From positions 62,001 through 126,000 of the forward strand of contig NZ_JAHVHT010000005.1 of assembly GCF_019802125.1 (NCBI RefSeq): a DNA stretch of 64,000 nucleotides, in the 5' to 3' direction. Positions 16,557 to 36,734 of the stretch are shown one piece after another. Source of the DNA: Tateyamaria omphalii. Its GTDB lineage: Bacteria > Pseudomonadota > Alphaproteobacteria > Rhodobacterales > Rhodobacteraceae. The notes below the pieces were generated by a model. The model made no database searches, was not told where the DNA came from, and saw only the letters and a list, made by a program, of their open reading frames with translations. Both the position numbers and the translations under genes were made by a program. Every line of letters starts with the position of its first letter. Position 1 is the stretch's first letter.

Positions 16557-18563
16557 ATGTCATCCACCTTTACCAAGGTGTGCGTCACGGTGGCTTTGAT
16601 GCCGGCCGTTGCCATCGCCCAAGACCAGACTGAAACCGAAACGCCGCCCGAACCGAACGACGATGCGTTTCTCGGAACCATCGTTTTGTCAGCGCCGGAC
16701 AACCCGATTGCGGAGGATGGAATCTCCGTAACGAGTGAGGGGCTCGCGCTGAGCAACCCCGCGGACTTGTCCGAACTCTTCGTGGCCGAGCCGACAATTG
16801 CTGTTGGCGGCTCAATCCCGATGTCACAGAAAGTCTACGTAAATGGGATCGAGGAGAATAACCTCGCCATCTCGATTGATGGAGCGCGGCAAAACAACAA
16901 AGTCTTTCACCACAACACCACGACCCTCATTGACCCTGCGCTGCTCAAGGCTGTGCGAATCGAACCTGGCGTGGCGTCGGCGGATGCGGGACCTGGGGCG
17001 CTGGCCGGGGCGCTGGCCTATGAGACAAAGGATGTGGATGACCTGCTGGATCATGGCGACACCTTTGGCGGGCGCTACAAGCTTGAGTATGACAGTAATG
17101 GAGATGTGTTTTCGAACAGCCTGAGCCTTTACGGACGCGACGGCGGTTTCGAGTATTTGCTGTTCGGAAAGTCTGCCACGGGCAACAATCGGGAAGACGG
17201 CGATGGCAATGACATCCTTGCCTCCGGCACTGACTTGAACAGCCTCTTGGGCAAGATTGCATATGAAACCGAAGGCGGCCATCGTTTTGAGTTTTCTGCT
17301 GAAAACGTGGCCGATGACGACGTGCGTCCGTATCGCGCCAATATCGGCGAGGTGATAGGAGGTTCGTTGCCGTTGACGCGGCCCTATGATCTGCAAAGGG
17401 AAAACTATTCGATCACCTACACCCGCACGAACCCCACGGATATGTGGAACCCCACGATCCGACTGAGCTACAGCGGGACGGAATTGTTGAACGACGAGAC
17501 GAATGAACCAGAACGTCAGCGTGTCTTTGGTGAAACCACCAGCTTGAACGGCGAGATTTCGAACCGCTTCACACTGAGTTGGGGTGAGATCAATGCCGGT
17601 ATCGATTTCTACAAAGATGAAGCAAACATTGATTTTGTAGACTTCACCGATCCCAACGAAGACTACAATGTCGGTGAAGAGTTGCAAAACATAGGGGTCT
17701 TTGCACAGGTTCGGATGGAGCCAAACGCCAACACGCGCCTGTCCTTCGGTGCGCGGGCAGACTTTCAAGACTTCGAAGCACGCGATGGCTACAAACAGTC
17801 GGAAAGCGGCTTGTCCGGGAATGTATCGGGTGAGTGGGACGTCACCGACCGGGTTACTGTCGGTGCGGGATACTCACATGTGTGGGGCGGGCTTGAACTG
17901 GCCGAAACATACATCATGACGCCAATCTGGAACTATCCGGCAGACGGTCTTGGCACAGTCACTGCGGACAACGCGTATATCGCGGCAAGCTACACGACCG
18001 GAACATGGGCGATCGACGGCAAGGTGTTCGGCACCGATATCAACAACGCCCGTGCTGCCAGTATCCGCAGCAGTAGCGGTGCCAACATCCGTGCGGATGT
18101 AGAGTCGCGTGGGTTTGAGTTGGGCTTCTCCACCACTTGGGACGGTGGCTTCTTCCGTGTGGGCTATGCCAACATCGATACTGAAGTAAACGGGCGCGTT
18201 GCGGACTCTTTTACCGGGAACTATCTGACAATCCCTCTGGGTGAGTTTTTCACGCTCCAAACTGCACACCGTTTCGACAACGGTATCCTCGTGGGGGGCG
18301 ATGCGCAAATTGCGTTGGACTACAGCGATACATTCGACTTCCTGGGCGGGTCACCAACGATTGATGGCTACACAGTGGTTAACACCTTTGTGGAATACTC
18401 ACCCAAGCGCATGGAAAACCTGACGCTGCGAATGGAGGTCAACAACCTCTTTGACGAGCAGTACACAGCACGCGCGACATATGGGCAGGATTTCCCGACC
18501 GAGGTCGTATCCTTGCCGGAGCCCGGACGGTCGATACGCTTGAGTGCTGAAATTCTGTTTTGA
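16557..18563 (+). CDS. TonB-dependent outer-membrane receptor (probable siderophore receptor)
   Basis: A 668-residue receptor with a signal peptide (cleavage after VAIAQ), an N-terminal plug domain carrying VYVNGIEENNLAISIDGARQ, and a C-terminal barrel ending in the terminal-Phe pattern RLSAEILF. GAGGGA precedes the ATG. The plug and the NNKVFHH segment resemble the haem/haemoglobin receptor group rather than FatA-like receptors, so haem is an alternative ligand. Its position, converging with the ferric-siderophore ABC operon, favours the locus's own siderophore. No TonB-ExbBD genes are in the window. The 260-bp upstream gap (16297-16556) shows no clear iron box. Confidence 0.85.
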   Translation: MSSTFTKVCVTVALMPAVAIAQDQTETETPPEPNDDAFLGTIVLSAPDNPIAEDGISVTSEGLALSNPADLSELFVAEPTIAVGGSIPMSQKVYVNGIEENNLAISIDGARQNNKVFHHNTTTLIDPALLKAVRIEPGVASADAGPGALAGALAYETKDVDDLLDHGDTFGGRYKLEYDSNGDVFSNSLSLYGRDGGFEYLLFGKSATGNNREDGDGNDILASGTDLNSLLGKIAYETEGGHRFEFSAENVADDDVRPYRANIGEVIGGSLPLTRPYDLQRENYSITYTRTNPTDMWNPTIRLSYSGTELLNDETNEPERQRVFGETTSLNGEISNRFTLSWGEINAGIDFYKDEANIDFVDFTDPNEDYNVGEELQNIGVFAQVRMEPNANTRLSFGARADFQDFEARDGYKQSESGLSGNVSGEWDVTDRVTVGAGYSHVWGGLELAETYIMTPIWNYPADGLGTVTADNAYIAASYTTGTWAIDGKVFGTDINNARAASIRSSSGANIRADVESRGFELGFSTTWDGGFFRVGYANIDTEVNGRVADSFTGNYLTIPLGEFFTLQTAHRFDNGILVGGDAQIALDYSDTFDFLGGSPTIDGYTVVNTFVEYSPKRMENLTLRMEVNNLFDEQYTARATYGQDFPTEVVSLPEPGRSIRLSAEILF

Positions 18564-18566
18564 TCC

Positions 18567-18588
18567 TGTGGGGCTCTAGGGCCCCACA
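18567..18588. terminator. Possible bidirectional terminator hairpin
   Basis: TGTGGGGC pairs perfectly with GCCCCACA around a 6-base loop between the convergent receptor and ATPase genes, overlapping the ATPase stop codon. No clear T-tract follows on either strand, so it may be a weak terminator or an mRNA 3' end stabiliser. Confidence 0.4.
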
Positions 18589-19334
18589 TCTACCAGGCGG
18601 CGGTCACCAATCGCGATGACCGCCGCATCTGTCCTGTAGATACGGTTGATCAGGTCCTGGGAAATCACCTCTTTCGGGCTGCCTGTGGCGGCGACACGCC
18701 CTTCGGTCATCACCACGAGATGATCGGCATAGGCCAGTGCATAGTTGATATCGTGCAGGACGATGACGATCGAACGCTGCTGTTCATCCGCAAGCGTGCG
18801 GAGCTGCGTCATCAGGCCACGCGCGGCCGCGATATCGAGATTGTTCAGCGGCTCGTCCAGAAGCAGGTAATCCGTGCCCTGGGCAAAGATCATGGCAAGA
18901 AGTGCATTTTGCCTTTGCCCACCCGACAGTGTTTCGAGCGCCCGGTTGCGCATGTCTGAGAGCCGAAAAGCGTCGAGGGAATTGTCGACAATCCGATGAT
19001 CTTCGGCCGTGAGGCGGCCACGGGAGTGCGGGTAGCGACCGAAGGCGACCAGGTCCGAAACCGTGAGGCGTGGTGCCGCGTCCTGAATTTGCGGCAGGAT
19101 CGACAAAACCCGAGCAAGCGCACCCGTGTCACAGGTCGTGATGTCTTGCCCATCTATGTCAATTCCACCCGATTGCAGCGGCATCAGTCGAGCCACCAGC
19201 GACAGCAAAGTGGACTTTCCCGCACCGTTAGGGCCGATCAGCGCGGTAACTCCATGTCGCGGCAAATCAAGCGAGACATCGCACAGAACAGGCTTACCAG
19301 CGATGTCGTAGGTCACGTTGCGGATCGAGATCAT
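18576..19334 (-). CDS. Ferric-siderophore ABC transporter ATPase (FecE/YclP type)
   Basis: A 252-residue ATPase of the iron-chelate group: Walker A GPNGAGKST, signature LSGGQRQNA, Walker B YLLLDEPLNNLD, and VLHDINYALAYAD. The LDEPLNNLD wording is typical of siderophore importers. Its ATG overlaps the stop of the permease upstream. It is last in the minus-strand operon DUF2218, binding protein, two permeases, ATPase. Confidence 0.9.
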   Translation of the reverse strand: MISIRNVTYDIAGKPVLCDVSLDLPRHGVTALIGPNGAGKSTLLSLVARLMPLQSGGIDIDGQDITTCDTGALARVLSILPQIQDAAPRLTVSDLVAFGRYPHSRGRLTAEDHRIVDNSLDAFRLSDMRNRALETLSGGQRQNALLAMIFAQGTDYLLLDEPLNNLDIAAARGLMTQLRTLADEQQRSIVIVLHDINYALAYADHLVVMTEGRVAATGSPKEVISQDLINRIYRTDAAVIAIGDRRLVDVGP

Positions 19335-20275
19335 CGAAAACGGCCCTTGAGCAAGAGGAAGAAGAAAAGCAAACCACCCAGCAGATCCACAACCACGGAC
19401 AGCGGTGTGGAAAGGGCAAACACACGCTCCATCACCAACTGTCCTCCGACGAGTGTGATGGCCGAGACCAACGCGGCAATCGGCAGCAGGCGCGCGTGGG
19501 TCACGGACGGATCAATCAGCCTTGCGAGGCTGACCACGAGGAGGCCGAGGAACGCAACCGGCCCAACCAGCGCAGTGGACACCGAGACGAGCGCTGCAAT
19601 CAGCAACAGTGCAAGCACCGTTTCGCGTCTGACCCGCACACCCAGATTGGTCGCCGCATCATGGCCAAGGGCAAGCACATCCCATTGCCGCCGCTTGTGC
19701 CAGGCCATCGCCAGGACGCCAAAGCTGAGTAGTGCGGCGAGCGGCAACAAGTCGGTCTCGATCCGGTTAAACCGCGCGTAGGATGCGCCCTGAATGACCT
19801 GAAACTCGTTTGGGTCGATCATGCGCTGCCAAAACGCAGTCAATGCACGAAAGAGCGTGGCAAATATGATGCCCGTCAGGATCATACGCAGCAGATCGCC
19901 ACGGGTCTGCACAATCAGCGTTCCGAACAACAGGACAGCTCCAGACATCAAAAGACCGGTGTTCAATCCAAACACGGCAATTGGCGGCAGGCTTATCGTT
20001 GTCTGCGCCCCCAGAAAAAACACCAGCCCGGTCAAGATCAGGCCATATAGGGCATCAAACCCGACAATCGATGGCGTCAGGATGCGGTTGCCCGACACGG
20101 TCTGAAACAGCACCGTAGAGGTGGAGATTGCCAGCGCCACCAACAGCAGGCCGGCCAGCTTGCCGCCCCGAAACGGAAGGACGAAACTCCATGCACCTTT
20201 GGCACCGACCGTCATGTACAAGACGACACATACAGCGAGCACCAGACTGAGATAGAGAACCGGCCTAGAGCGCAT
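19331..20275 (-). CDS. Ferric-siderophore ABC permease (FecCD family, YclO-like)
   Basis: A 314-residue BtuC/FecCD-type permease with about nine hydrophobic segments and the typical ILTPSIVGFDALYGLI, MILTGIIFATLFRAL and GPVAFLGLLVVSLARL blocks. It overlaps the first permease by 11 bp. Together they form the inner-membrane channel for the iron-siderophore. The pair is closer in pattern to the YclN/YclO and FatC/FatD petrobactin/anguibactin permeases than to FhuB-type fusions. Confidence 0.88.
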   Translation of the reverse strand: MRSRPVLYLSLVLAVCVVLYMTVGAKGAWSFVLPFRGGKLAGLLLVALAISTSTVLFQTVSGNRILTPSIVGFDALYGLILTGLVFFLGAQTTISLPPIAVFGLNTGLLMSGAVLLFGTLIVQTRGDLLRMILTGIIFATLFRALTAFWQRMIDPNEFQVIQGASYARFNRIETDLLPLAALLSFGVLAMAWHKRRQWDVLALGHDAATNLGVRVRRETVLALLLIAALVSVSTALVGPVAFLGLLVVSLARLIDPSVTHARLLPIAALVSAITLVGGQLVMERVFALSTPLSVVVDLLGGLLFFFLLLKGRFR

Positions 20276-21218
20276 GGGATCTGGGGCGATACAGAAGCCA
20301 AAGGAAAATCACCGCACCGAGGATGCCCATGACCGTGCCCACTGGAATCTCGAAAGGGTGCCGCAGAAGGCGACCGATGACATCGGACGCCAGAACCAGC
20401 GCGGCGCCACCACTCGCAATCAGCGGCAGCGTACGCCGTAAATTGTCACCTGCGTAGCGCGCCACGATGTTTGGCACAACGAGGCCAAGGAATGGGATAG
20501 CGCCCACGGTTACCACGACCAGCGCCGTTACGACGGATATCGCAAGCAAGCCCACGATCATCACCTGCTCATAGTTCAAACCGAGGTTGATGCTGGCCGT
20601 GCGCCCCAGGCCCAGGATCGCAAACTGATCTGCTGCCATGTAGGTCAGTACGGCCACAAAAGCAGCCACCCACAGCAGCTCGTAGCGCCCACGCAACACG
20701 CCAGAGAACTCTCCGTTCATCCAAACGTCGATGTACTGTATCAGGTCACCCTGGTACGCGATGAAGGTGACGCCAGCCCCCAGCACGCCCCCATAGATCA
20801 ACCCCACCAATGGGATGAGCAGCGGTTGTGTCGGTGGCAGCCGCTGAATGATGAGCAAAAAGCCGACGCTGGCCAGTAGAGCCGTGGTTGAGGCAACCGC
20901 CATCTTGGTGAGCAAACCGGCTTCCGGTGCAGCCCATGTGGCAAAGAGAATGCCGAGCGCAGCACCTTGTCCAGTACCGGTGGTCATCGGCTCCACGAAC
21001 CGATTGCGCACCATACTTTGCAGCAGAGCGCCGCAAACTGCCAATGCGCCACCAGTGATCACTACAGCCAGGGTGCGCGGCACGCGGCTGTCGCGCAGCA
21101 ACTCCCATGCCGCCGGATCGCGCAGCAGATCAACGGGTTGCAGCGGGATAACCCCGACAAAGAGCGATAGCAGGCCGAGAACGAAAAGCCCTCCGCCCAG
21201 CAACAGGCCCAACCTCAT
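20265..21218 (-). CDS. Ferric-siderophore ABC permease (FecCD family, YclN-like)
   Basis: A 317-residue FecCD-family permease: a hydrophobic N-terminus, LRDSRVPRTLAVVITGGALAVCGALLQ (the coupling and substrate-gate region), FVEPMTTGTGQGAALGI, and GAIPFLGLVVPNIVARYAGDNLR near the C-terminus. It starts 4 bp after the binding-protein stop. It is the partner of the permease downstream. Confidence 0.88.
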   Translation of the reverse strand: MRLGLLLGGGLFVLGLLSLFVGVIPLQPVDLLRDPAAWELLRDSRVPRTLAVVITGGALAVCGALLQSMVRNRFVEPMTTGTGQGAALGILFATWAAPEAGLLTKMAVASTTALLASVGFLLIIQRLPPTQPLLIPLVGLIYGGVLGAGVTFIAYQGDLIQYIDVWMNGEFSGVLRGRYELLWVAAFVAVLTYMAADQFAILGLGRTASINLGLNYEQVMIVGLLAISVVTALVVVTVGAIPFLGLVVPNIVARYAGDNLRRTLPLIASGGAALVLASDVIGRLLRHPFEIPVGTVMGILGAVIFLWLLYRPRSHAL

Positions 21219-21222
21219 GTGG

Positions 21223-22119
21223 TCATAGATCCGTCAGTGCAGCAGCGATTTCATCCAACGTCAGCATCATCGACTGGATGCCACCGCCGGCCAGGTAGAT
21301 CGGCGCAGAACTGAGATAGACGACCCTGTCATTTTTCCACGCGTTGGTCTCGTGCACCAGCGGGTTGTTCAACGCGGCACGCGCGCTGGCACCGTCTTCA
21401 CCGATGGCGGACATGCGATCGATGACCAGCAGAATGTCCGGATTGGCATCCCGGATGAATTCGAAACTGATGGCTTCGCCGTGCGTACTCTCTTCGACCG
21501 TCTCGACAGTCGGGGGCAGGCCCAAATCCGTATGAAGCCATCCGAAGCGACTTTCGGCACCGTAAGCAGATACCTTCGGACCATTGGTCATAACGATGAG
21601 AGCATTGCCGTTACCTTCCAAAGCGGCTGCAAGCGTATCGAGCCTTGCGTTGAACGTTGCAGCCAATGCAGCGGCCTGATCTTCCTTGCCGAAGATCGTT
21701 CCATAGGCTGCCAGCCGGTCAAGGCCCTGACCCACGACATCCTCCCAGATGGTCATGTCCACCGTAGGTGCAACGCGAGCGAGATCGGGTACCACTTTGG
21801 ACGAGCGCCCACCGGCCAGGATAAGGTCGGGAGCAAGAGCAGCGATGGCTTCGTAATCGGGTTCGAACAGTGTCCCCATGGGGGCCGCACCGTCCATGGC
21901 GTCCGTCAGGTAGTCGAGCATGGGTGGGCCAACGACACCGTCGGCGCTGACATCCAGCGCTTCGAGCGTGTCGAGAATGGCAAAATCCATCACGGCGATG
22001 GTTTGGGGCAAAGGGGTGACCTCAACCTGGCCCGAATAGGTTTCAATGGTGGTGGTTTGGGAATGTGCGGCGGTGCCGAATGCAAAAAGTGCTGCGATGG
22101 TGGCAGTAAAGCGAAGCAT
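21223..22119 (-). CDS. Siderophore-binding periplasmic protein (YclQ/FatB/CeuE type)
   Basis: A 298-residue class III binding protein. The signal peptide MLRFTATIAALFAFGTAAHSQ has no lipobox, so it is a soluble periplasmic protein in this Gram-negative. The N-terminal lobe has TPLPQTIAVMDFAILDTLEAL, a pattern characteristic of YclQ/FatB/CeuE proteins that bind catecholate/petrobactin-type complexes. The linker helix and LILAGGRSSKVVPDLARVAPTVDM follow the family. The location beside asb genes makes ferric petrobactin or its photoproduct the likely ligand. The gene follows DUF2218 with a 95-bp gap. Confidence 0.87.
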   Translation of the reverse strand: MLRFTATIAALFAFGTAAHSQTTTIETYSGQVEVTPLPQTIAVMDFAILDTLEALDVSADGVVGPPMLDYLTDAMDGAAPMGTLFEPDYEAIAALAPDLILAGGRSSKVVPDLARVAPTVDMTIWEDVVGQGLDRLAAYGTIFGKEDQAAALAATFNARLDTLAAALEGNGNALIVMTNGPKVSAYGAESRFGWLHTDLGLPPTVETVEESTHGEAISFEFIRDANPDILLVIDRMSAIGEDGASARAALNNPLVHETNAWKNDRVVYLSSAPIYLAGGGIQSMMLTLDEIAAALTDL

Positions 22120-22214: not shown

Positions 22215-22520
22215 TCAGTGGTGTGCGGCGTGTGCGTCGATGGACCACGACATCGTTTCAAACTCTTCGCGAAAGGCGAAGCGTACCAGATGCGCATCGA
22301 TCATGCGCTGCGCGTCCATTGGATCTTCACCACCTTTGAGAGCGATGGTGATGACCAGTGCACTATCTGTGGCAACAAAGGTCGTGTCACCGAAGCCCAA
22401 GGCTGCAAAGCCGCTATTTTCGGTGCACTGCGCCTCAACCTTGTGGGCGAAATGCTTGCACAGCTGTTGAAGATAGCGCGATCCATTCGGGGTATCATAG
22501 GTGCCGGTAAGAGATATCAT
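22215..22520 (-). CDS. DUF2218 domain protein
   Basis: About 101 residues beginning MISLTGTYDTPNG. DUF2218 features are SRYLQQLCKHFAHKVEA, an FGDTTFVAT strand and the end HLVRFAFREEFE. The family is small, cytoplasmic and often found near siderophore uptake genes; function is unknown. The reading frame extends upstream to 22634, but AGGA is spaced 8 bp from the ATG at 22520 and the extension lacks family similarity. It is first gene of the importer operon, just below the candidate iron box. Confidence 0.8.
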   Translation of the reverse strand: MISLTGTYDTPNGSRYLQQLCKHFAHKVEAQCTENSGFAALGFGDTTFVATDSALVITIALKGGEDPMDAQRMIDAHLVRFAFREEFETMSWSIDAHAAHH

Positions 22521-22530
22521 GCTCATTTTC

Positions 22531-22547
22531 CTGATTATTTTAATCAG
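22531..22547. promoter_or_regulatory. Candidate iron-responsive operator (RirA-type IRO box)
   Basis: A perfect 17-bp palindrome (CTGATTA-TTT-TAATCAG) lies just upstream of the DUF2218 start, in the 233-bp gap between the divergent uptake and biosynthesis operons. It contains TGA-N9-TCA, the consensus described for the RirA iron regulator of alphaproteobacteria. Its position would block transcription of the uptake operon and possibly the polyamine/siderophore operon when iron is plentiful. Confidence 0.6.
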
Positions 22548-22753
22548 AATTAGATGATTCACAAAATAATTCAACTCTATAAACAGGTTAGCTCCGGCTT
22601 CGGTGGTTTTCTGCGCGCGCCAAAGATTTTGCAACCAACCGCTTGCACAATCTGAGATTGAGGTTTAGGCCATAGGCAAATACGCCCGGTAGGCCCAGCC
22701 GAACACGCTTTGCATCGGTGACCACCAAGCTTCTGATGGACACGAGGCGGCGT

Positions 22754-24706
22754 ATGAACACCCTTGCTGACATTTCTGATGATGTGGCGACGATTGCGCC
22801 CAAAGGCGCGGCGATACCGTCATCCGGTGCCGCCGCAATCTACGGTGTTGACCGGTGGTCGGACGGTCTGATCTGTGTGACACCGTCCGGCGACTTGGCA
22901 TTGAAAAACCCAAGTCATCTCACCGCGCCGCCGGTGTCCTTGCCAGTGATCCTGGAAGCGCTGGAAAGGCGTGGCATCCCGGCACCGCTTTTACTTCGGG
23001 TACAGCCCTTTCTTGATCGCTCGTTGACGCGGCTGCACGAGGCCTTTGCCGCAGCCATCCGGGACATTCGCTACAAGGGATGCTACCGCGGGGTCTTTCC
23101 CATCAAGGTGAATCAGCAGCCCGAGATTGTGGAGCGCGTGGTCGAGGTGGGCCGAGAGGCCCATTTCGGGCTGGAGGTTGGATCGAAACCGGAACTCCTG
23201 ATCGCACTGGCACAGTCCATGTCGCCCGAAGCTTTGTTGATATGCAATGGAGCGAAGGACGCGGGGTTCATGCGTCTTGCGATGCTGTCACAGAAGCTGG
23301 GTTTCAACACAGTGATCGTGCTGGAAAGCCTGCAGGAGTTTGAGACTGTCCACCGGATTGCCGAGGACTTGGAGCTGCGCCCGCGGCTCGGAGTACGCAT
23401 CAAGCTGACAGAGACCGTAACCGGCAAGTGGCAGGCCTCCTCGGGAGATCGCTCTGTCTTTGGCATAAGCGCGCTGGACCTCTTGAAATTGACTGCCCGG
23501 CTGGAAGAGACCGAGATGATGGATTGCCTCGTCCTGCAGCACACTCATGTCGGATCGCAGGTACCGGACATCATGGACGTGCGACGCGCAGCAACAGAAG
23601 CCTGCCGTTTTTATACCGAACTGTCACGCATGGGCGCGCCTCTACGATACCTGGATCTGGGCGGTGGGCTGGGGCTGGACTACACCGGCGCGCGGCAGGC
23701 GGATGAAAATTCAATCAACTATACGGTCAAGGAATACTGCGCAAACCTCGTCGAAAGCGTGTTTTATGCGATGGAGGAGGCAGGGTTGCCGCATCCGACC
23801 ATCGTCACGGAAAGCGGTCGTTTCATTGCCGCGCAATCGGCGATTTTCGTTTTCAATGTCCTTGACGCCACGCTGTACGACACGCCCGAACGACCCATGG
23901 TCACATCGGACGATCATCACCTACTGAGTGATCTGCTGGCGGTGGAAAGCTATGTCGAAAGTGATCGGTTGCAGGAGGCGCTGAACGACGCGATCTATTA
24001 TCGCGACGAAATCCGGACCTTGTTTCGCCATGGGCAAATTGGGCTTCACTTGATGGCGCGGGCTGAGCAAGCCTTTCTGTTCCTGCTGTCGAGATTCAAA
24101 CATGTAGGTGCCCAGGATGGCTTTTCCGGGCTGATTGACCAGCAATTGTCCGGTTTCGTGGACCACTACCATGGCAACTTCTCGTTGTTTCAATCCTTGC
24201 CGGATGTCTGGGCAATTGATCAGGTGCATCCCGTTATGCCCCTAAGCCGCTTGGACGAGGTACCCACGCGACGGGCGATCCTGACGGATCTGACCTGTGA
24301 CAGCGATGGCAAGATTGAACGTTTCGTATTGGCTGATGGGATGGCTTCCGCATTGCCTGTGCACGCGCTGCGCGAGGGCGAAGACTACCACATCGGCGTG
24401 TTCTTTGTTGGCGCTTACCAAGAGACCCTCGGTGATCTGCACAACCTGTTCGGCGATCCAAACGTGGTCACCATCTCGCTTGATCCAGAGGGCGGTTTTG
24501 ACATTGAGCACGAGACCGAAGGCGACCGGATCTCTGAGGTGATGTCCTATGTCGAATACGATCCGCAAACATGCCTTACGACATTTCGCAAGACGGTCGA
24601 AAGGGCTGTGAAAGAGGGACATGTCGATGCTGATGAACGCCGTATGATCATGGCTGCCTACAAGGATGGCCTCGCTGGCTCCACCTACTTTTCCGCTGAC
24701 CGCTAA
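22754..24706 (+). CDS. speA: Biosynthetic arginine decarboxylase (SpeA family)
   Basis: About 650 residues, the usual SpeA length. It is a fold-III PLP enzyme converting arginine to agmatine. Visible residues: PLP lysine in YRGVFPIKVNQQ (about 118), HTHVGSQVPD, the glycine loop LDLGGGLGLDY, ESGRFIAAQSA and the catalytic cysteine context LTCDSDGKIERF. ATG-22754 (GAGG 6 bp upstream) is preferred to 22718. It starts the plus-strand operon that runs through the polyamine genes into the siderophore genes and is divergent from the uptake operon. It likely feeds the agmatinase at 27105. Confidence 0.92.
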   Translation: MNTLADISDDVATIAPKGAAIPSSGAAAIYGVDRWSDGLICVTPSGDLALKNPSHLTAPPVSLPVILEALERRGIPAPLLLRVQPFLDRSLTRLHEAFAAAIRDIRYKGCYRGVFPIKVNQQPEIVERVVEVGREAHFGLEVGSKPELLIALAQSMSPEALLICNGAKDAGFMRLAMLSQKLGFNTVIVLESLQEFETVHRIAEDLELRPRLGVRIKLTETVTGKWQASSGDRSVFGISALDLLKLTARLEETEMMDCLVLQHTHVGSQVPDIMDVRRAATEACRFYTELSRMGAPLRYLDLGGGLGLDYTGARQADENSINYTVKEYCANLVESVFYAMEEAGLPHPTIVTESGRFIAAQSAIFVFNVLDATLYDTPERPMVTSDDHHLLSDLLAVESYVESDRLQEALNDAIYYRDEIRTLFRHGQIGLHLMARAEQAFLFLLSRFKHVGAQDGFSGLIDQQLSGFVDHYHGNFSLFQSLPDVWAIDQVHPVMPLSRLDEVPTRRAILTDLTCDSDGKIERFVLADGMASALPVHALREGEDYHIGVFFVGAYQETLGDLHNLFGDPNVVTISLDPEGGFDIEHETEGDRISEVMSYVEYDPQTCLTTFRKTVERAVKEGHVDADERRMIMAAYKDGLAGSTYFSADR

Positions 24707-24727
24707 CTGATGAACGAGGATGTATAC

Positions 24728-25933
24728 ATGGGACGTGTTTTAGTGATTGGGGCCGGTGGCGTCGGCGCTGTCGCGGTCATGAAGATGGCGATGAACCCGG
24801 AGATTTTCACTGACATCACCCTGGCCAGCCGCACCCTGTCAAAGTGCGAGGACATCGCTGCAAACGTGCGGAAGCGCACGGGCGTCACGATCAAGACAAC
24901 GCAGGTGGATGCCATGGATGTGGCGGCCACGGTTGCTCTGATCCGGGAGAGTGGGGCGGAATTGCTGGTCAATCTTGCGCTGCCCTACCAGGATCTTGCG
25001 CTGATGGATGCCTGTCTGGAGGCGGGTATACACTATCTCGATACCGCGAATTACGAGCCGGAAGACGACGCCAAGTTCGAATACAGTTGGCAGTGGGCCT
25101 ATCAGGATCGGTTCAAGGAGGCCGGGCTGAGCGCCGTTCTGGGATCGGGGTTTGATCCGGGTGTGACGTCGATTTTCGCCGCATGGGTGCGCAAGCACAA
25201 GCTGGACGGCATCCGTTTGATCGACATTCTCGATTGCAATGGCGGTGATAACGGCAAGCCCTTTGCCACCAATTTCAATCCGGAAATCAACATTCGCGAG
25301 GTCACTGCCATTGCCCGCCATTGGGAGAATGGCGATTGGGTCGAAACCCCGGCCATGACGCGCAAAGTCGCCTTCGACTTTCCCGAAGTGGGCGAAAAGA
25401 ACATGTATCTCATGTATCACGAGGAACTAGAAAGCCTGAAAACCCACTTCCCCGAGGTCGAGCGCGCACGGTTCTGGATGACCTTTGGTGATGCCTACAT
25501 CAACCATGTCACCGTTCTGCAGAATGTGGGTATGACCCGCATTGATCCGGTCATGCACGAGGGGCAGGAGATCATTCCGCTGCAGTTTCTGAAGTCCGTG
25601 CTGCCTGACCCAAGCGATCTTGGCGAACTGACGAAGGGCAAGACCTGCATCGGCGACATCATCACCGGACCGACCGCCGAGGGTGAAAAGACCTGTTACA
25701 TCTATAACATCTGCGATCACGAGGAATGCTTTGCCGAAGTGGGCAGTCAGGCCGTGGCCTACACTACCGGTGTTCCAGCGATGATCGGCGCAGCCATGAT
25801 GCTGAAGGGGATATGGAAGGCGCCCGGTGTCTGGAACACCGAGCAACTCGATCCCGATGCCTTCATGGACATGCTCAACACCAATGGCCTGCCCTGGCAA
25901 GTCGTAGAACTCGACGCGCATCCGGTGTTCTGA
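24728..25933 (+). CDS. Carboxy(nor)spermidine synthase (saccharopine-dehydrogenase family)
   Basis: A 401-residue NAD(P)H-dependent enzyme of the LYS9/CASDH family. It has a Rossmann motif GAGGVGAVA at the N-terminus, LASRTLSKCEDIA, ANYEPEDDAKFEYSWQW, a GSGFDPGVTSIFAAW core and DILDCNGGDNGKPFATNFNPEINIRE, all typical of carboxynorspermidine dehydrogenase. It would condense putrescine (or 1,3-diaminopropane) with aspartate semialdehyde. Because putrescine is made by the neighbours, carboxyspermidine is the expected product. ACGAGGA 7 bp ahead supports ATG-24728 over 24710. Confidence 0.9.
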   Translation: MGRVLVIGAGGVGAVAVMKMAMNPEIFTDITLASRTLSKCEDIAANVRKRTGVTIKTTQVDAMDVAATVALIRESGAELLVNLALPYQDLALMDACLEAGIHYLDTANYEPEDDAKFEYSWQWAYQDRFKEAGLSAVLGSGFDPGVTSIFAAWVRKHKLDGIRLIDILDCNGGDNGKPFATNFNPEINIREVTAIARHWENGDWVETPAMTRKVAFDFPEVGEKNMYLMYHEELESLKTHFPEVERARFWMTFGDAYINHVTVLQNVGMTRIDPVMHEGQEIIPLQFLKSVLPDPSDLGELTKGKTCIGDIITGPTAEGEKTCYIYNICDHEECFAEVGSQAVAYTTGVPAMIGAAMMLKGIWKAPGVWNTEQLDPDAFMDMLNTNGLPWQVVELDAHPVF

Positions 25934-25935
25934 AC

Positions 25936-27999: not shown

Positions 28000-28045
28000 C
28001 TGATCGAATCCGACCCGACCACGCTCGCAGGGTTATCTCGATCAG
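28000..28045 (+). promoter_or_regulatory. Inverted repeat in the leader of asbA
   Basis: CTGATCGA and TCGATCAG form a perfect 8-bp inverted repeat with a 30-base loop in the 104-bp gap between speB and asbA, ending 3 bases before the AGGAGG ribosome-binding site. A small palindrome, CGATC-T-GATCG, overlaps its left arm. It could be an operator or an mRNA hairpin tuning asbA translation. It could also be chance. Confidence 0.3.
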
Positions 28046-28063
28046 TGCAGGAGGTATGCAAAG

Positions 28064-29878: not shown

Positions 29879-31568
29879 GGCCGTGCGCCATGAAACCACC
29901 GGCGACCGCGTGCTGCGCCAGTTGTGCGAAGCCTTTGTGTTCGAGGGTCTGTGCAACCCGGCGCCGAGAGTGGGTATAGGATACTGGACATGGGGCAATG
30001 CGACGTTCCGGGCAAAGATCGCCGAGGGCGGTTTTGACCGCCCCAGGATCACGCCGGGATCCGTGCAGATACGGCATACGACGGGTTGGAGAACGGCGTC
30101 CGTCTCCGACGTGCTTGCTGCTGCACCGATGTCGGACACCATCCGCGAGGAGTTGGCTGAGGATTTGCGGCGCACCGAGGTATTGACCGACTTGACTGCA
30201 CCGCTGGTCCGGCAGCGTGGTCCGCGCACAGAAATGGATTGCAACGCACTGGAAAGCGCACTGGACGAGGGGCATCCGTACCATCCCTGTTTCAAGGCCC
30301 GCAGCGGGTTTTCAGACGCAGACCACATGAGCTACGGGCCGGAAGCCGGACGCTCTTTTCAGCTGGAGTGGCTGGCCGTGGACCAGACGCTGGTTGATCA
30401 AGTCCTGCCCGATGGCTTCCTCGCGACAGAGTTGGATGCGGCAACAAGGCTGCAATTGTGTGCGCAGGCGACCGCGAAAGGCGTGACACTTGCGGCGCAT
30501 TGCCTGATTCCAGTGCACCCATGGCAGGCGCGCGCTTTGCAAGGCGACGCGACCTATCGGGCCTGGCGCGACGCCGGGCGCATCACGCCATTGGGCGCTT
30601 TCGGTGATCGCTACAGCGCCACGCAGTCGGTGCGCACGCTTGCGAATGTCGACCACCCGGAGCGCGCGCATGTGAAGACCGCAATGGCAATGCGCAACAC
30701 ATCGTCCCTGAGGATCATGGAACCGCACTCAGTGTGCGTTGCCCCGGCGATCAGCAAGTGGCTGGCCGCCATCGTTGAAAGTGATCCGGTATTCCACGAT
30801 GCGTGTGGTCTGAGGCTGCTGCGAGAATATGCCGGGATCATTGTTGGACGGGAAACACCTTTGGCCGGGCACCTCGCGGTGCTCTATCGCGAAAGCCCAC
30901 AAAGCGTTGGTCTGGACTCTGGTCGATTGGTGCCACTGAACGCCTTGGCGGTCACGGAAAGCTCAGGCGATCCGCTCATTCACCCGTGGATAAACAAGCA
31001 TGGGCTACACATTTGGGTCGATCAATTGCTGCGCATGGTGATCTTGCCGGTATGGCACCTGATGGTGGCGCATGGGATCGGGCTTGAGGCGCATGGCCAG
31101 AACCTGCTGTTGGAACATGACAATGGATGGCCGGTCGGGTTGGTCGCAAGGGACTTCCATGAAAGTGTCGAATACGTTCCCAACCTGCTGTCACAACCGG
31201 AGTTGGTTCCTGATCTGACAGTCATCGATCCCGTCTATGACGCCGCTGAACCGGGCCGCTTCCATCGCATGGCCTGTGCCGAAGATCTGCGCGAATTGGT
31301 GATGGATACCCTCTTTATCTACAACCTGTCCGAGGTGGCCGCGCTTCTGCAGCGCCACTACGGGCTGGCCGAAGCCCTGTTTTGGCAGCGGGCACGGACG
31401 GTGATCGACCAGCATGTCGCGCGCCATGGTTTGAAGGAGCGTCAAGCAGCCTTCAAACCGTTCGCGCCGCGCATTTCCACTGAGTCTCTGATGAACCTCA
31501 AGCTGAATGGTGGGGCGGGCGTGTTTCGCCACACCGTTTCCAATCCGCTGAGCGAAATGAAAGGATAA
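29865..31568 (+). CDS. asbB: Petrobactin synthetase AsbB-like (IucA/IucC NIS synthetase)
   Basis: A 567-residue second NIS synthetase: LIPVHPWQARAL, VKTAMAMRNTSSLRIM and EAHGQNLLLEHDNG. It should add the second amine to the citryl intermediate. ATG-29865, with GGAGG 6 bp upstream, is used; the frame open to 29775 lies within asbA. It is coupled to asbA by overlap and lies 3 bp before asbC. Confidence 0.85.
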   Translation: MSVHEAVRHETTGDRVLRQLCEAFVFEGLCNPAPRVGIGYWTWGNATFRAKIAEGGFDRPRITPGSVQIRHTTGWRTASVSDVLAAAPMSDTIREELAEDLRRTEVLTDLTAPLVRQRGPRTEMDCNALESALDEGHPYHPCFKARSGFSDADHMSYGPEAGRSFQLEWLAVDQTLVDQVLPDGFLATELDAATRLQLCAQATAKGVTLAAHCLIPVHPWQARALQGDATYRAWRDAGRITPLGAFGDRYSATQSVRTLANVDHPERAHVKTAMAMRNTSSLRIMEPHSVCVAPAISKWLAAIVESDPVFHDACGLRLLREYAGIIVGRETPLAGHLAVLYRESPQSVGLDSGRLVPLNALAVTESSGDPLIHPWINKHGLHIWVDQLLRMVILPVWHLMVAHGIGLEAHGQNLLLEHDNGWPVGLVARDFHESVEYVPNLLSQPELVPDLTVIDPVYDAAEPGRFHRMACAEDLRELVMDTLFIYNLSEVAALLQRHYGLAEALFWQRARTVIDQHVARHGLKERQAAFKPFAPRISTESLMNLKLNGGAGVFRHTVSNPLSEMKG

Positions 31569-31571
31569 CCG

Positions 31572-32795
31572 ATGTTCGTTCTGAACGACCGGCATACCGA
31601 TATCGCGCCCTTGCCTGCAAAGGCCTACGTCAACCCCGACACTCATCGCTATGCAATTCATCTGCAACAAACAGACAATGCCTTGAGCCATATCCTGGCT
31701 CTGTGGTGGGCAGGGGCCGGGGTGTTTCCGATCCATCCCACCATTCCCGCGACCAAAGCCCGCGATATGGCCGTTCAGGCGGGATGCGATCGACTTGTCA
31801 CCGAAGCGGGAGTGCATGAATTGCAAAATGCCAAGGAGCCGTCGGGCGGCGTTCTGGTGCAAATGAGTTCAGGCACCACCGGTGCGCCAAAAGTGATCAC
31901 CCGCAGTTGGGATCAGGTACGCCGCGAGCTGGAAAGCTATGTGTCGGCATTCCCGGACCCTGCGGACATGACGCCTGTCATTGCCTGCCCGATCACGCAT
32001 TCCTATGGCCTGATCGCAGGTGTCATGGTGGCGCTTGAGCGCGGTCAGATGCCTGTCGTCGTCGATACGCTCAACCCGAAATACATCCTGCGCCGCCTGC
32101 GCGAGATACGTGCCCCTTTGCTCTACACGTCTCCGGCGATGCTGCACACGCTGGCAGCGTTCACGCCCTCTGACCAACCAATTTACGCTGCCATGACATC
32201 CGGCACGATCCTGTCGAAGCCCTGGTTCGAGCAGATCCGGTCCAAGACCAAGCACCTGTTTCAGCAATACGGCTGTTCGGAAGCAGGTTGTATTGCAATC
32301 AACCCCGACCTTCAGGATGCCGCAGCAGTTGGCTACCCGCTTCCCCACTTCGATCTGAAGACGAGCGGCGACCCTTCTGCACCCGCTCCCATCACCGTCC
32401 ATGACGGGCAGCACGTGATCGACACAGGTGATCTCGGATATCTGACATCGGACGGTATGCTCGTCTTCGTCGCGAGGCAGGATGACGTCATCGATGTTGC
32501 GGGCTTCAACGTCTACCCACAGGAGGTAGAGCAAGCGGCCCTTTCGATGGAGGGTGTCGGCGACGCGCTGGCCTTTGCACGCAAGGATGCGTTGGGGGGT
32601 GACCGTGTCAGTCTCATGTTCGAAGGGGCCGGGGTCGCACCAAACGAACTGCGACAGTGGCTGATGCAAAGACTGGCGCCATATCAGTTACCCGCCACGC
32701 TTCACGCCGTGCCACGCCTCCCGCGTGAGGCAAATGGCAAGATCAACCGCCGCGACGTTGCCCGTCAGTTCGCTGATCTGGAGGCGTCCACATGA
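31572..32795 (+). CDS. asbC: 3,4-dihydroxybenzoate-AMP ligase AsbC-like
   Basis: A 407-residue ANL-family adenylate-forming enzyme: P-loop SSGTTGAPK (residues 99-107), YGCSEAGC, DTGDLGYL and C-terminal ANGKINRRD with the catalytic lysine. It is shorter than typical acyl-CoA synthetases, as AsbC is. It would activate 3,4-dihydroxybenzoate and load it on the carrier domain of the next protein. Its stop overlaps that start by 4 bp. Confidence 0.85.
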   Translation: MFVLNDRHTDIAPLPAKAYVNPDTHRYAIHLQQTDNALSHILALWWAGAGVFPIHPTIPATKARDMAVQAGCDRLVTEAGVHELQNAKEPSGGVLVQMSSGTTGAPKVITRSWDQVRRELESYVSAFPDPADMTPVIACPITHSYGLIAGVMVALERGQMPVVVDTLNPKYILRRLREIRAPLLYTSPAMLHTLAAFTPSDQPIYAAMTSGTILSKPWFEQIRSKTKHLFQQYGCSEAGCIAINPDLQDAAAVGYPLPHFDLKTSGDPSAPAPITVHDGQHVIDTGDLGYLTSDGMLVFVARQDDVIDVAGFNVYPQEVEQAALSMEGVGDALAFARKDALGGDRVSLMFEGAGVAPNELRQWLMQRLAPYQLPATLHAVPRLPREANGKINRRDVARQFADLEAST

Positions 32796-34069
32796 ACGAC
32801 GCGCATATCCTTACAGCAATTGAAAACACTCTACGCGGCCCAATGGCCAATTCACATATGGACGAATTCGGCCCCGACGCGCGCTTGAACGAGGATCTGC
32901 ATCTGGACTCGGTGCTGCTCCTGCACCTGCTGCTGCATCTCGAGACGATCCATGGCGTCGAGGTGCCGGAACGGGAAATGAGCAAGTCGGGCATCGGTAC
33001 CGTCCGCGACCTGACTGCCTTTCTCATGGGGCGGTCCATCGCCCCCGAAACCGATGATGAGGAAGAGATCGATATCAAGGTCCACTGCGTCGTCAGTTGC
33101 CTGAGTGCCGCAATCAAGGCCTGCCCGGGACTGGACCACAGGCCGTTCTATTTCGGGGTCTGGGACACCGGGTTCGAAGTCGATGATGCCTATCGCCTGT
33201 CCTATCACGGGCCATCGGTGAAGCATGACCACTTCCGTCATTGGTTCAGGCGTCTTTACGGCGTCAATGTGATCGGTTGGTACAACAAGGACCAGACCAA
33301 GGCCGAAAACATTGCGCGTTTCGAACGGCTTCTGGCGAACAAACGCAGCACGGAGCATCTGATGGTGATGCTGGATATGTATCACCTTCCCGAGCGGGAG
33401 AATAAGTTCAACCAGAACCCGTTCCCCCACTATGTCATGATCGAAAAGACACCTGACGCTGACCGGTGGTTCATGCACGACCCGGACTACCGATGGGAAG
33501 GAGTGTTGGCCCGCACGACAATACTGCATGCCATTGCGCAGCCCACAGTGGCGGGCGGCTATATCTTTGACCGGGCCGAGGCGCGTGCCCCTCGAGACGA
33601 GGATTTGCGTGCCTATTTCGAAGCGGTCTTTCTGGAGAAACGAAACCCGATGATTGATGCCACGCGCCAGATCGTGCGTGCGCATCTCGATCCGGCGGAA
33701 CCGCTGGATCACACCGATCTTGCACAGGCCTTGCGCGAACTGCCCGTGCTCGCGATCCGCAAATACGCCTATGAACATGGGTTTGCGGTGTTCTGGCGCG
33801 CGCTAGGATTGCCCGATCAGGAGTTCGAAGAGTGGTGCGACGAGATCGAAGCACTGCACCAGGGGTTCCGGTCGCTCCAATACAAGATCACCAAACTCTC
33901 CGCCTCCGGAGACCCCGCACTGGCTGCACAAGTCTTTTCCGCTCTCGACGTGCTGGATCAACGCGAAACCCAAATCAAGGCCGGGCTGAAAGCCTGGTTC
34001 GTCAAATGGCAAGTCTCGACCTTCGCGTCGGGTGAAGTTGCCCTCGTCATGACAGGAGCAGACCAATGA
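32792..34069 (+). CDS. AsbD-AsbE fusion: aryl carrier protein plus condensing (transferase) domain
   Basis: A 425-residue protein. Residues 1-85 are an acyl/aryl carrier domain with phosphopantetheine-site Ser40 in EDLHLDSVLLL. An acidic linker (ETDDEEEID, about 85-95) follows. The remaining 330 residues match AsbE in size and position (DUF6005-like), with FYFGVWDTGFEV and KHDHFRHWF near the start of the domain. In Bacillus, asbD (about 90 codons) and asbE (about 330) are separate. The fusion would tether the loaded dihydroxybenzoyl group to the enzyme joining it to spermidine. It overlaps both neighbours by 4 bp. Confidence 0.82.
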   Translation: MNDAHILTAIENTLRGPMANSHMDEFGPDARLNEDLHLDSVLLLHLLLHLETIHGVEVPEREMSKSGIGTVRDLTAFLMGRSIAPETDDEEEIDIKVHCVVSCLSAAIKACPGLDHRPFYFGVWDTGFEVDDAYRLSYHGPSVKHDHFRHWFRRLYGVNVIGWYNKDQTKAENIARFERLLANKRSTEHLMVMLDMYHLPERENKFNQNPFPHYVMIEKTPDADRWFMHDPDYRWEGVLARTTILHAIAQPTVAGGYIFDRAEARAPRDEDLRAYFEAVFLEKRNPMIDATRQIVRAHLDPAEPLDHTDLAQALRELPVLAIRKYAYEHGFAVFWRALGLPDQEFEEWCDEIEALHQGFRSLQYKITKLSASGDPALAAQVFSALDVLDQRETQIKAGLKAWFVKWQVSTFASGEVALVMTGADQ

Positions 34070-34905
34070 AGATCTCGCTTTGCACGATCACGTTCCGCCA
34101 CCATCTTGTCAGCCTGGAACAGATCGCGGACTGGGCCAGCCGAAACGGGTTCCACGGGATCGAGATCTGGGGGGCGCATGCAAGGCATATCCCCTTCGCA
34201 ACCGGCCATGATGCGCGTTGGTTGGCAGGCTTCGGACTGCGTGTTCCCATGGTCAGCGACTACCTTCCTTTGGACAGGCCCGATGCGTTGCATCGAAAAA
34301 CAGCTGCGGCGCTTGATCAAGCCCGGCGCTGGGGAACAAACAACATCCGCACCTTCGTCGGTCGGAACGGCAGCGATGACACGTCCGATCCTGACCGCGC
34401 CGACTTGACCAAGGCGTTGCGGGACGCATGCGCACAGGCAGCCGAACAAGATGCATATCTGCTGGTCGAAACCCATCCCGGTACCTTGGCCGATACGCTC
34501 GCATCCACTGTCCGACTGCTGGAGGAGGTTGACCACGCCGCCCTTGCCGTAAATTTCGACGCACTGCATGTCTGGGAGGGTGGCGATGATCCCCGCACTG
34601 CACGGCAGGTGCTGCGGCCAAAGATCCGCAACTACCACTTCAAGAACATCGCGTCGCGATCCGCGCTGCCTGTCTTTGCACCAAACAACATCTATGATGC
34701 GGCCGGGTCGCGAGACGGGATCGTGCCGCTGCTGGACGGAGAGATGGACTATGGCCCGCTTCTGCGCGATCTTGCCGAAGAGCCTGATGCATCAGTGTCG
34801 CTCGAATGGTTCGGCAGCGATGTCTTCAACACGTTGAAACGCGACTGCGCCGAGCTTCAAAAGACAGTTGCAGCCCGAGCCACACCTTTGCAGAACGCAT
34901 CCTGA
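34066..34905 (+). CDS. asbF: 3-dehydroshikimate dehydratase AsbF
   Basis: A 279-residue TIM-barrel metal enzyme converting 3-dehydroshikimate to 3,4-dihydroxybenzoate. The match to AsbF runs end to end: SLCTITFRHHLVS at the N-terminus, NGFHGIEIWG, MVSDYLPL, NNIRTFVGRNGS, LVETHPGTLADTL, FDALHVWE, YHFKNIAS, FAPNNIYDAAG and SLEWFGSD. The metal-binding Glu, Asp, His and Glu of the family fall in ETHP, FDALH, YHFKN and LEWF. This is the signature gene that separates petrobactin-type from other citrate siderophores. It starts inside the asbDE end. Confidence 0.93.
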   Translation: MKISLCTITFRHHLVSLEQIADWASRNGFHGIEIWGAHARHIPFATGHDARWLAGFGLRVPMVSDYLPLDRPDALHRKTAAALDQARRWGTNNIRTFVGRNGSDDTSDPDRADLTKALRDACAQAAEQDAYLLVETHPGTLADTLASTVRLLEEVDHAALAVNFDALHVWEGGDDPRTARQVLRPKIRNYHFKNIASRSALPVFAPNNIYDAAGSRDGIVPLLDGEMDYGPLLRDLAEEPDASVSLEWFGSDVFNTLKRDCAELQKTVAARATPLQNAS

Positions 34906-34916
34906 CACAGCCTGCC

Positions 34917-36734
34917 ATGCTGTTTCGCTTTTTCGAAAACCGGATCGATCCGTTTGCCGGTGCAGTGGAGGGCCCACCTCCGGGCACCGTTCTTGGGTAT
35001 GTGCGGACGCAACTTGAACCCTATCGCAGGTGGCTGCCGTGGATCGCCCTTGTCGGACTTCTGACCGCGCTGATGGAGAGCGGGCTGATTTTCTATTCCG
35101 GGCGCCTCATCGATTTGATGAGCACCAGCGGACCGGCGGCGTTCTGGGACCAGCATGGCACCGAAGTGCTGTTGGCGTTGTTTGTCGTGCTTGTGGTCCG
35201 GCCCGCACTCGTGACGCTCAACTACCTGCTGCTTGAACAGACGCTGTCATCAAACCTGCAGGAACAGGTGCGATGGCGTGCGCACAAGCACCTTTTGGGC
35301 CAATCGGTCGGGTTCTTCCAAAACGACTTTGCCGGGCGATTGTCGAACCGGGTGATGCAGATGGGTCCGGCGGTGCAGGACAGCGTGCACATGACGTTCG
35401 AGGGGCTTTGGTTCAGCGTTACCTACATCGTCGGGGCAGCCGTCATCCTCGGCCAAATCGACATCCGCCTGGCACTGCCCCTCGTCCTTTGGGTTGTTGG
35501 CTACGCCTTCTACGTCCGCCACATCGCACGACGGGTCGGGACAGCATCTGAGCGATGGGCAGACGCGCGGTCCCTGGCTACGGGGCGGGTTGTGGACGCC
35601 TACAGCAACATCGAGACGGTCAAGCTGTTTGCGGATGACAGGCAAGAGCAGGGTTACGCGCTGTCGGCCCTGCGCCGTCTGCGCCTGCGCTTTCAGCGGT
35701 TCTTGCGGCTGATGACCATTCTCGCCTTCGGGATGAATGCGATCAACGGTGTGCTCATCCTGATACTTGTAGGACCCGCAATCTGGTTCTGGATGCAAGG
35801 CACAGTATCGGTTGGCGAAGTCGCGGCCACGTCTGCATTGGCAATCCGCCTTAACGGGATGAGCACGTGGATCATGTGGGTGACCATCCGATTGTTTGAA
35901 AACAGCGGTATCATTCAGGAGGGTTTGCGCTCGATCGCGGCGCCACACCTGATCACCGATGCACCCAGCGCCACCGCCTTGCCGCGCCGCGCAGGCGAGA
36001 TTTCCATTGAAAATGTCACCCATCGACATGGCAAGGATGGGGGTGGGCTGGGCGGGGTGTCCTTGAAAATCCCCGCTGGCCAGAAACTCGGCCTTGTGGG
36101 TCGATCCGGTGCCGGGAAATCCACACTCGCCAACCTGCTGATGCGATTTCAGGATCCCGAGCACGGGCAAATTCGGATTGACGGGGTCCCAATTGCCGAG
36201 CTGACGCAGCGCAGTCTACGCAAACAGATTGGCATGGTCAGCCAGACCGGCTCGCTCCTGCACCGGTCAATCCGTGAAAACCTGCTATACGGCAACGAAC
36301 ATGCAACCGAAGCAGACATGATCCGCGCGGCAACACAAGCCAAGGCCCATGATTTCATTTTGGACTTGCGCGACAGCGCGGGACGGCAAGGATACGACGC
36401 CCATGTCGGTGAGCGGGGTGTCACGCTTTCCGGCGGACAGCGTCAGCGCATCGCAATTGCCCGCGTCATTCTGAAAGACGCGCCAATTCTTGTCCTTGAT
36501 GAGGCGACCTCGGCCCTCGACAGCGCAGTTGAGGCGGAGATTCAAAGCGCGTTGCACGCGGTGATGGAAGGCAAAACGGTGATCGTCATTGCACACCGTT
36601 TGTCCACATTGGCAAAGATGGATCGGGTGGTCGTCTTAGACGAGGGCAGGATCGTAGAGGACGGCGCGCCAGACGCATTGCGATTGGGAAGAGGCCTCTT
36701 TGCACAGCTTTGGCAGCGACAACAGGCGTCCTAG
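34917..36734 (+). CDS. ABC exporter, fused TMD-NBD (candidate siderophore exporter)
   Basis: A 605-residue half-transporter. Six membrane segments fill about residues 1-330, followed by an ATPase domain with Walker A GRSGAGKST, signature TLSGGQRQR, Walker B ILVLDEATSALD and switch-His AHRLST. It would act as a homodimer in the inner membrane. It starts 11 bp after asbF (ATG-34917, no strong Shine-Dalgarno; the frame open to 34806 lies inside asbF). Being last in the operon, it is the best candidate to move the finished siderophore out of the cytoplasm. It shows no peptidase or other extra domain. Confidence 0.88.
   Translation: MLFRFFENRIDPFAGAVEGPPPGTVLGYVRTQLEPYRRWLPWIALVGLLTALMESGLIFYSGRLIDLMSTSGPAAFWDQHGTEVLLALFVVLVVRPALVTLNYLLLEQTLSSNLQEQVRWRAHKHLLGQSVGFFQNDFAGRLSNRVMQMGPAVQDSVHMTFEGLWFSVTYIVGAAVILGQIDIRLALPLVLWVVGYAFYVRHIARRVGTASERWADARSLATGRVVDAYSNIETVKLFADDRQEQGYALSALRRLRLRFQRFLRLMTILAFGMNAINGVLILILVGPAIWFWMQGTVSVGEVAATSALAIRLNGMSTWIMWVTIRLFENSGIIQEGLRSIAAPHLITDAPSATALPRRAGEISIENVTHRHGKDGGGLGGVSLKIPAGQKLGLVGRSGAGKSTLANLLMRFQDPEHGQIRIDGVPIAELTQRSLRKQIGMVSQTGSLLHRSIRENLLYGNEHATEADMIRAATQAKAHDFILDLRDSAGRQGYDAHVGERGVTLSGGQRQRIAIARVILKDAPILVLDEATSALDSAVEAEIQSALHAVMEGKTVIVIAHRLSTLAKMDRVVVLDEGRIVEDGAPDALRLGRGLFAQLWQRQQAS

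Follow-up and report, generated by a model that had tools for sequence, protein, structure and literature searches.

A petrobactin-type siderophore locus with linked spermidine synthesis genes in Tateyamaria omphalii

Introduction

The closest described relatives of the locus considered here come from roseobacters. The account of the squid-gland roseobacters, in the part that concerns the cluster, places four polyamine genes upstream of the siderophore genes and suggests putrescine (PMC4337385); the corresponding part of the Epibacterium ulvae U95 report lists these same enzymes by name, with spermidine as the proposed polyamine, and describes CAS activity in that organism (PMC7989816). One discussion of petrobactin raises the possibility that the ocean form of such a siderophore reflects the polyamine that local bacteria make or obtain (passage in PMC8776838). 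We examined a locus of this kind in Tateyamaria omphalii, in a 64,000-nucleotide stretch of DNA (the window) that corresponds to bases 62001-126000 of contig 5 of a 4.49 Mb assembly.

Positions 16557-36734 of the window hold a petrobactin-type (asb) locus with AsbA, AsbB, AsbC, an AsbD-AsbE fusion, AsbF, a receptor, and an importer. Judged by its genes, this is a real and complete locus with linked spermidine synthesis, whose product and expression are predicted only. It is a further example of a published type, with relatives already known to carry such loci. Its features are as follows.

16557..18563, plus strand: TonB-dependent outer-membrane receptor (Pfam Plug and barrel; 81% identity to the Tateyamaria ANG-S1 locus, L075)
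18576..19334, minus: FecE-like ABC ATPase (domain search)
19331..20275, minus: FecCD permease (PF01032)
20265..21218, minus: FecCD permease (PF01032)
21223..22119, minus: periplasmic binding protein, YclQ/enterochelin-binding type (8bf6, 3gfv)
~22215..22529, minus: DUF2218 protein (PF09981; start inferred from the beginning of the domain)
22532..22546, no strand: TGA-N9-TCA near-palindrome, candidate iron-responsive operator (pattern also in L075)
22718..24706, plus: SpeA, biosynthetic arginine decarboxylase (TIGR01273; GTG start, ATG at 22754 possible)
24728..25933, plus: carboxyspermidine/carboxynorspermidine dehydrogenase, CASDH (NF043000, 8deb; ATG at 24710 possible)
25930..27108, plus: carboxy(nor)spermidine decarboxylase, CASDC, NspC-like (TIGR01047, 9eaf; TTG start inferred, 4-nt overlap)
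27105..27959, plus: SpeB, agmatinase (TIGR01230; ATGA overlap)
28064..29878, plus: AsbA-like NIS synthetase (IucA_IucC and FhuF domains)
29865..31568, plus: AsbB-like NIS synthetase (3to3)
31572..32795, plus: AsbC-like aryl adenylating ligase (PRK08308)
32792..34069, plus: AsbD-AsbE fusion (carrier domain with Asp39-Ser40; DUF6005)
34066..34905, plus: AsbF-like 3-dehydroshikimate dehydratase (3dx5)
34917..36734, plus: ABC exporter, fused permease-ATPase, final operon gene (PF00664 and PF00005)

Genes of the siderophore block

AsbF, which the initial annotation had recognized end to end, matches the solved AsbF 3dx5 over residues 1-262 (E 5.6e-67), its sole solved relative at E<=0.001. Residues Glu135, Asp165, His191, and Glu247, which we take to be the four metal ligands, align with identical residues in 3dx5. 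Loss of these ligands had been named as a ground for doubt, and they are kept; identity as an unrelated epimerase is ruled out by the 3dx5 match over nearly the full length. The two IucA/IucC synthetases that had been claimed are AsbA, whose best solved relatives are IucA and AcsD, and AsbB, whose best solved relative is AsbB itself (3to3, E 3.4e-82). The claimed AsbC-like ligase is also present, with the PRK08308 acyl-CoA synthetase as its best NCBIfam match. An AsbD/AsbE protein had been placed in overlapping frames; it exists as one fused open reading frame, in which DUF6005 covers residues 94-412 (the AsbE part, E 4.8e-145) and the carrier-domain Asp39-Ser40 is invariant across 10 aligned rows, but overlaps occur only at gene ends (AsbA/AsbB, 14 nt; AsbC/AsbDE and AsbDE/AsbF, 4 nt each).

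Among the uptake genes, the two FecCD permeases, the ATPase, and the TonB receptor of the initial annotation were all found by Pfam domains. The best solved relatives of the receptor cover its N-terminal third only and name no ligand. The binding protein, previously called YclQ/FatB-like, ranks 8bf6 (named only 'ABC transporter', E 9.6e-56) ahead of YclQ 3gfv (E 1.8e-47), so the YclQ half of that label holds, but FatB 7sf6 is far weaker.

Overlooked at that stage were SpeA, CASDH, CASDC, and SpeB (together 22718-27959), the DUF2218 gene, and the ABC exporter; the polyamine genes bear on which petrobactin analogue is likely. The rarity implied by naming Bacillus and Marinobacter as the best-known sources was overstated, because a single scan across genomes of named species turned up 185 AsbDE relatives, 75 of the best 80 were alphaproteobacterial (taxonomy from record titles), and rhodopetrobactin, methylolanthanin, and roseobactin have been published. 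Counts of 80 loci below refer to these best 80 of 185.

Operon layout, with possible control and mobility

Ten same-strand genes run from 22718 to 36734, with intergenic gaps from SpeA to the exporter of 21, -4, -4, 104, -14, 3, -4, -4, and 11 nt. The operon starts 5.3 kb ahead of asbA, with the arginine-to-spermidine gene set; an internal promoter is likeliest in the 104-nt gap ahead of asbA, the widest in the operon. The region that separates the divergently oriented DUF2218 and SpeA genes contains a TGA-N9-TCA sequence (22532-22546), which we take to resemble rhizobial iron boxes. ANG-S1 (L075) has the pattern in the equivalent place, less palindromic; as an operator it is a weak candidate because the bare pattern recurs 21 times in the window. 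A promoter/terminator scan gave fewer sites than the shuffle means (2 vs 4.9; 7 vs 12.7). A gene for an Rrf2 regulator (15898-16296) stands immediately outside the block.

Every gene from receptor through exporter is conserved between the window and ANG-S1 at 69-94% identity. Nine flanking genes of the window that were compared encode an SBP, a CobW protein, a reductase, the Rrf2 regulator, an XRE-cupin regulator, three glutamate-synthase-like proteins, and one glutamine-synthetase-like protein, and none of the nine was found around the ANG-S1 block (examined over 2.3 kb beyond the receptor and 10.5 kb beyond the exporter). Because the block is conserved and the flanks differ, the sequences suggest that it moves as one unit. 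The window contains no tRNA gene, base composition does not change clearly at the block ends, and general domain scans, which were not aimed at integrases, found none among the flanking proteins.

Beyond the exporter, the XRE-cupin regulator gene (36892-37566) adjoins a gene set at 37779-42132 that comprises glutamine amidotransferase and glutamine-synthetase-like genes with two glutamate-synthase-like genes (read by eye) between them, perhaps of N-methylglutamate or glutamine type.

Proposed pathway and product

The locus is probably a self-sufficient petrobactin system that makes its own spermidine and carries out synthesis, export, and re-import. Gene content, order, close spacing, protein families, and the kept AsbF and carrier motifs are observed; the reactions, the product, the function of the exporter, and regulation by iron are proposed by analogy with known pathways. 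SpeA would convert arginine to agmatine and SpeB agmatine to putrescine, after which CASDH would join aspartate semialdehyde with putrescine and CASDC would yield spermidine. AsbF would form 3,4-dihydroxybenzoate from 3-dehydroshikimate, AsbC would load it onto the AsbD domain, AsbE would transfer it to spermidine, and AsbA and AsbB would couple two of the resulting 3,4-dihydroxybenzoyl-spermidine arms to citrate. Petrobactin would be released by the ABC exporter, a role suggested by the position of that gene in the operon, and re-import of ferric petrobactin would use the TonB receptor together with the binding protein and the FecCD/FecE importer. SpeA and SpeB exceed their family cut-offs (TIGR01273, 640 vs 624 bits; TIGR01230, 193 vs 174 bits). 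CASDH and CASDC were assigned by family together with solved relatives, because their NF043000 and TIGR01047 scores fall below the cut-offs: CASDH matches the carboxyspermidine dehydrogenase 8deb (E 7e-156) and CASDC matches 9eaf (E 1.7e-121).

Since each asb step has a gene and the four polyamine genes would give the needed amine, the predicted product is petrobactin (m/z 719.36) rather than an acetylated homospermidine form. The earlier expectation of petrobactin or a close analogue thus remains the best reading of the gene content.

Several observations weigh against this assignment. Four proteins score below curated cut-offs: CASDH with NF043000 (408 vs 800 bits, E 5e-122), CASDC with TIGR01047 (399 vs 409), AsbC with PRK08308 (455 vs 513), and residues 3-79 of the fused reading frame with the AsbD model (52 vs 100). 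The CASDH/CASDC pair could make norspermidine if given 1,3-diaminopropane. A GNAT of another kind than the acetyltransferase discussed below is encoded at 46035-46592, 9.3 kb beyond the block. No CASDH match was found within flanks of up to 10 kb in 68 of the 80 asb loci. Finally, ANG-S1, which has the same locus, showed no siderophore activity in the test described in the relevant part of PMC4337385.

Siderophore supply or general metabolism

A first alternative, which we consider unlikely, is that the polyamine genes belong to general metabolism and are merely adjacent to the siderophore genes. The same four-gene operon does occur away from siderophore genes in other roseobacters, and among 390 genomes of the order nspC (E<=1e-40) is present in 174, as against 15, own genome included, for DUF6005; moreover, the cassette is perhaps the sole spermidine source in its own genome and so may serve both jobs. 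Against this, the cassette accompanies 12 of the 80 asb loci in three different arrangements, and its linked copies form a lineage of their own.

The cassette was sought in the 80 loci by tblastn with the window proteins (E 1e-8; flanks up to 10 kb; 10 loci shorter than 20 kb), which gave CASDH in 12, CASDC in 11, SpeB in 11, and SpeA in 6, this last count being low partly since SpeA often lies beyond the flank. Roseobacter-type Rhodobacteraceae account for 17 of the 80 loci (record titles, Agaricicola excluded) and include all 12 that have CASDH. Of the remaining five, L109 and L119 are short contigs, and the L119 genome has the cassette on another short contig, beside a receptor gene; L147 carries it on the asb contig at a distance of about 69 kb; the L082 genome has an nspC copy of the free-standing lineage on a different contig; and the L138 genome has no nspC at E<=1e-40. 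Five other loci have the four polyamine genes immediately ahead of asbA (L077-L081, from Tateyamaria ANG-S1, Roseobacter cerasinus, Roseobacter sp. MH60115, and two uncultured Rhodobacteraceae), and the genes occur near asb in differing arrangements in Leisingera, Epibacterium, and L151. Plasmid records include 71 with AsbDE (47 of them Phaeobacter) and 97 with CASDH at E<=1e-40; among the matches listed, Leisingera sp. S132 carries the two close together, and Ensifer canadensis carries them far apart, with a CASDH that is 40% identical.

In a 44-row CASDC tree, 16 siderophore-lineage rows split from 28 free-standing rows with support of 100/100. This tree omits 13 distant rows (L160, L163, L165, L171, L174, L182, L183, L187, L188, L193, L200, L202, L205) of a 57-row quick tree, in which the 28 free-standing rows group together at 94 and the siderophore-lineage rows are not resolved from one another beside the distant rows. 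Fourteen of the 16, the window included, are labelled asb-linked (L225 only by a receptor neighbour on a broken contig), and L219 shares a contig with asb; the label alone requires three changes on the 44-row tree. A quick 91-row AsbDE tree joins the window to five other rows (support 95), and the cassette immediately precedes asbA in all of them. Cassette presence as labelled takes six changes on that tree, an overcount because the label scores L109, L119, and L147 as negative.

Variation among related loci includes a siderophore-lineage cassette (L224, genome G248) that adjoins genes for a TonB receptor and Fec-like proteins although its genome has no DUF6005 match, perhaps a remnant or part of another polyamine siderophore system. 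In the Leisingera sp. S132 plasmid, a CcdA/CcdB-family pair (L231, 16252-16784) sits between asbF and the exporter gene. Ten of the 80 loci (L102, L107, L108, L110, L112, L114, L115, L131, L150, L155; Rhizobiaceae and Rhodopseudomonas infernalis) have AsbA, B, C, and DE, and no match to the window AsbF in the DNA examined; these loci may obtain their aryl acid differently, or their AsbF gene may be located elsewhere. The matches to asbA, asbC, asbDE, and asbF in L074 (G181) are each split into two or three pieces, which may reflect decay of the cluster or a poor assembly. A divergent asb group from one genus (code g7; L018-L022 and L025, in G168, G188, G113, G260, G163, and G302) shows about 39-41% identity to the window in AsbF and 43-46% in AsbDE, and the g7 members included in the AsbDE tree (L066, L069, L073) are placed apart there.

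The genome itself was searched for other polyamine routes. It has no second speA or nspC, no PF01564 spermidine synthase, and no PF01276 (OKR-type) decarboxylase. Its two PF02784 matches are SpeA and a diaminopimelate decarboxylase (TIGR01048, 476 bits vs cut-off 298), and PF03435/PF16653 return CASDH, one protein nearest to solved saccharopine reductases, and weaker matches. No gene like homospermidine synthase (HSS) of the saccharopine-dehydrogenase type was found, deoxyhypusine-synthase-like HSS being outside the search, as were SpeD, pyruvoyl arginine decarboxylase, the 1,3-diaminopropane route, and polyamine uptake. For the kinds of route searched, a second source of putrescine or spermidine is rejected.

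Of 20 genus genomes, the same two (G000, G392) have both speA and nspC at full length, in each case beside asb, a further point against a role in general metabolism; a spermidine synthase occurs in 1 of the 20. The DUF6005 search took in 8 of the 18 genus genomes without speA/nspC, the other ten lying outside it, and found no match in these eight same-genus genomes of the 390-genome draw. Weaker extra decarboxylase-like matches in 6 of those 18 (G230, G335, G346, G395, G396, G399) mean that a genus-wide lack of polyamine synthesis is not established. No nspC at E<=1e-40 is present in four of the order's 15 asb-positive genomes (G181, G183, G285, G298) or in 16 of 38 asb genomes drawn from the 80 loci, which weighs against any simple rule.

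We put forward only tentatively, as somewhat less probable than its negation, the proposal that the siderophore operon is the sole putrescine and spermidine route of the cell, that petrobactin was gained as a transferable block with its own spermidine pathway by a lineage largely without polyamine synthesis, and that spermidine is thereby tied to iron starvation. In the open-access literature searched, we met no claim that an operon of this type is the only source of spermidine in a cell.

Identity of the amine and the aryl acid

A petrobactin analogue built on another amine, either norspermidine or homospermidine as in rhodopetrobactin, appears an improbable product. The families that CASDH and CASDC match are named for the spermidine and norspermidine routes alike, and norspermidine specificity is possible given the scores below cut-off; B. 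anthracis enzymes take norspermidine in vitro, and a norspermidine derivative was proposed from North Pacific samples (both from passages of PMC8776838), while the alphaproteobacterial rhodopetrobactin contains homospermidine, as noted in part of PMC7857480. However, SpeA and SpeB of the operon would supply putrescine, leading to spermidine, and no HSS-like gene of the saccharopine-dehydrogenase type was found in the genome. Nor does the window show an MllH-like acetyltransferase: the GNAT of L131, taken as the MllH-type enzyme, was used in tblastn (E 1e-5) against the window, L061-L076, the 80 loci, L230, and L231, and matched in L131 and L156 only, the window being the part of this genome covered. 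The calculated m/z values are 747.39 for the homospermidine form and 691.33 for the norspermidine form; a value of 831.42 is given for rhodopetrobactin B in the pertinent part of PMC13251462.

A methylolanthanin-like metallophore with 4-hydroxybenzoate in place of an iron siderophore is very improbable: the mll genes of Methylobacterium, a homologous asb cluster, include a DE fusion and DUF2218 and give a product that contains 4-hydroxybenzoate despite an AsbF homologue (section on mll in PMC11317620), but in the window AsbF retains all four predicted metal ligands, an MllH-like acetyltransferase match is absent, and a FecCD-type importer is present.

Comparison with known systems

Petrobactin remains the predicted product, and what sets the amine in petrobactin-type siderophores becomes testable in a locus with its own amine pathway and a host without another recognized route. 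A tentative rule for genome mining is suggested: linked SpeA/SpeB and carboxyspermidine genes would indicate spermidine (petrobactin), and a linked MllH-type acetyltransferase the acetylated homospermidine form.

The Bacillus anthracis asbABCDEF, Marinobacter, and Alteromonas clusters are known to have the same six functions as the window; AsbD and AsbE are separate in Bacillus, according to the part of PMC11317620 that treats them, and fused in the window, and two Alteromonas loci (L146, L148) have no match to the window polyamine genes within their flanks. The rhodopetrobactin (Rhodopseudomonas) and methylolanthanin (Methylobacterium) loci share asb homologues, the DE fusion, and DUF2218 with the window, as described in the same part of that source, but contain an acetyltransferase for acetylated homospermidine arms, whereas the window has no match to the L131 enzyme. 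Like the window, the roseobactin-type locus of Phaeobacter inhibens (pPGA2_95) has a receptor, an importer, asbA-F with the DE fusion, an exporter, and DUF2218; unlike the window, it has no SpeA, CASDH, CASDC, or SpeB gene in the 23 kb examined by annotation and tblastn (E 1e-5), which reach 11 kb from AsbDE in P. inhibens 2.10. The clusters of squid-gland Leisingera and Tateyamaria and of E. ulvae U95 combine, as the window does, asbA-F and the DE fusion with SpeA, CASDH, CASDC, and SpeB. Leisingera and Epibacterium have the cassette upstream of the receptor gene and an exporter gene in the opposite orientation, whereas in the window the cassette abuts asbA and the exporter is last in the operon; the gene order of ANG-S1 is identical to that of the window.

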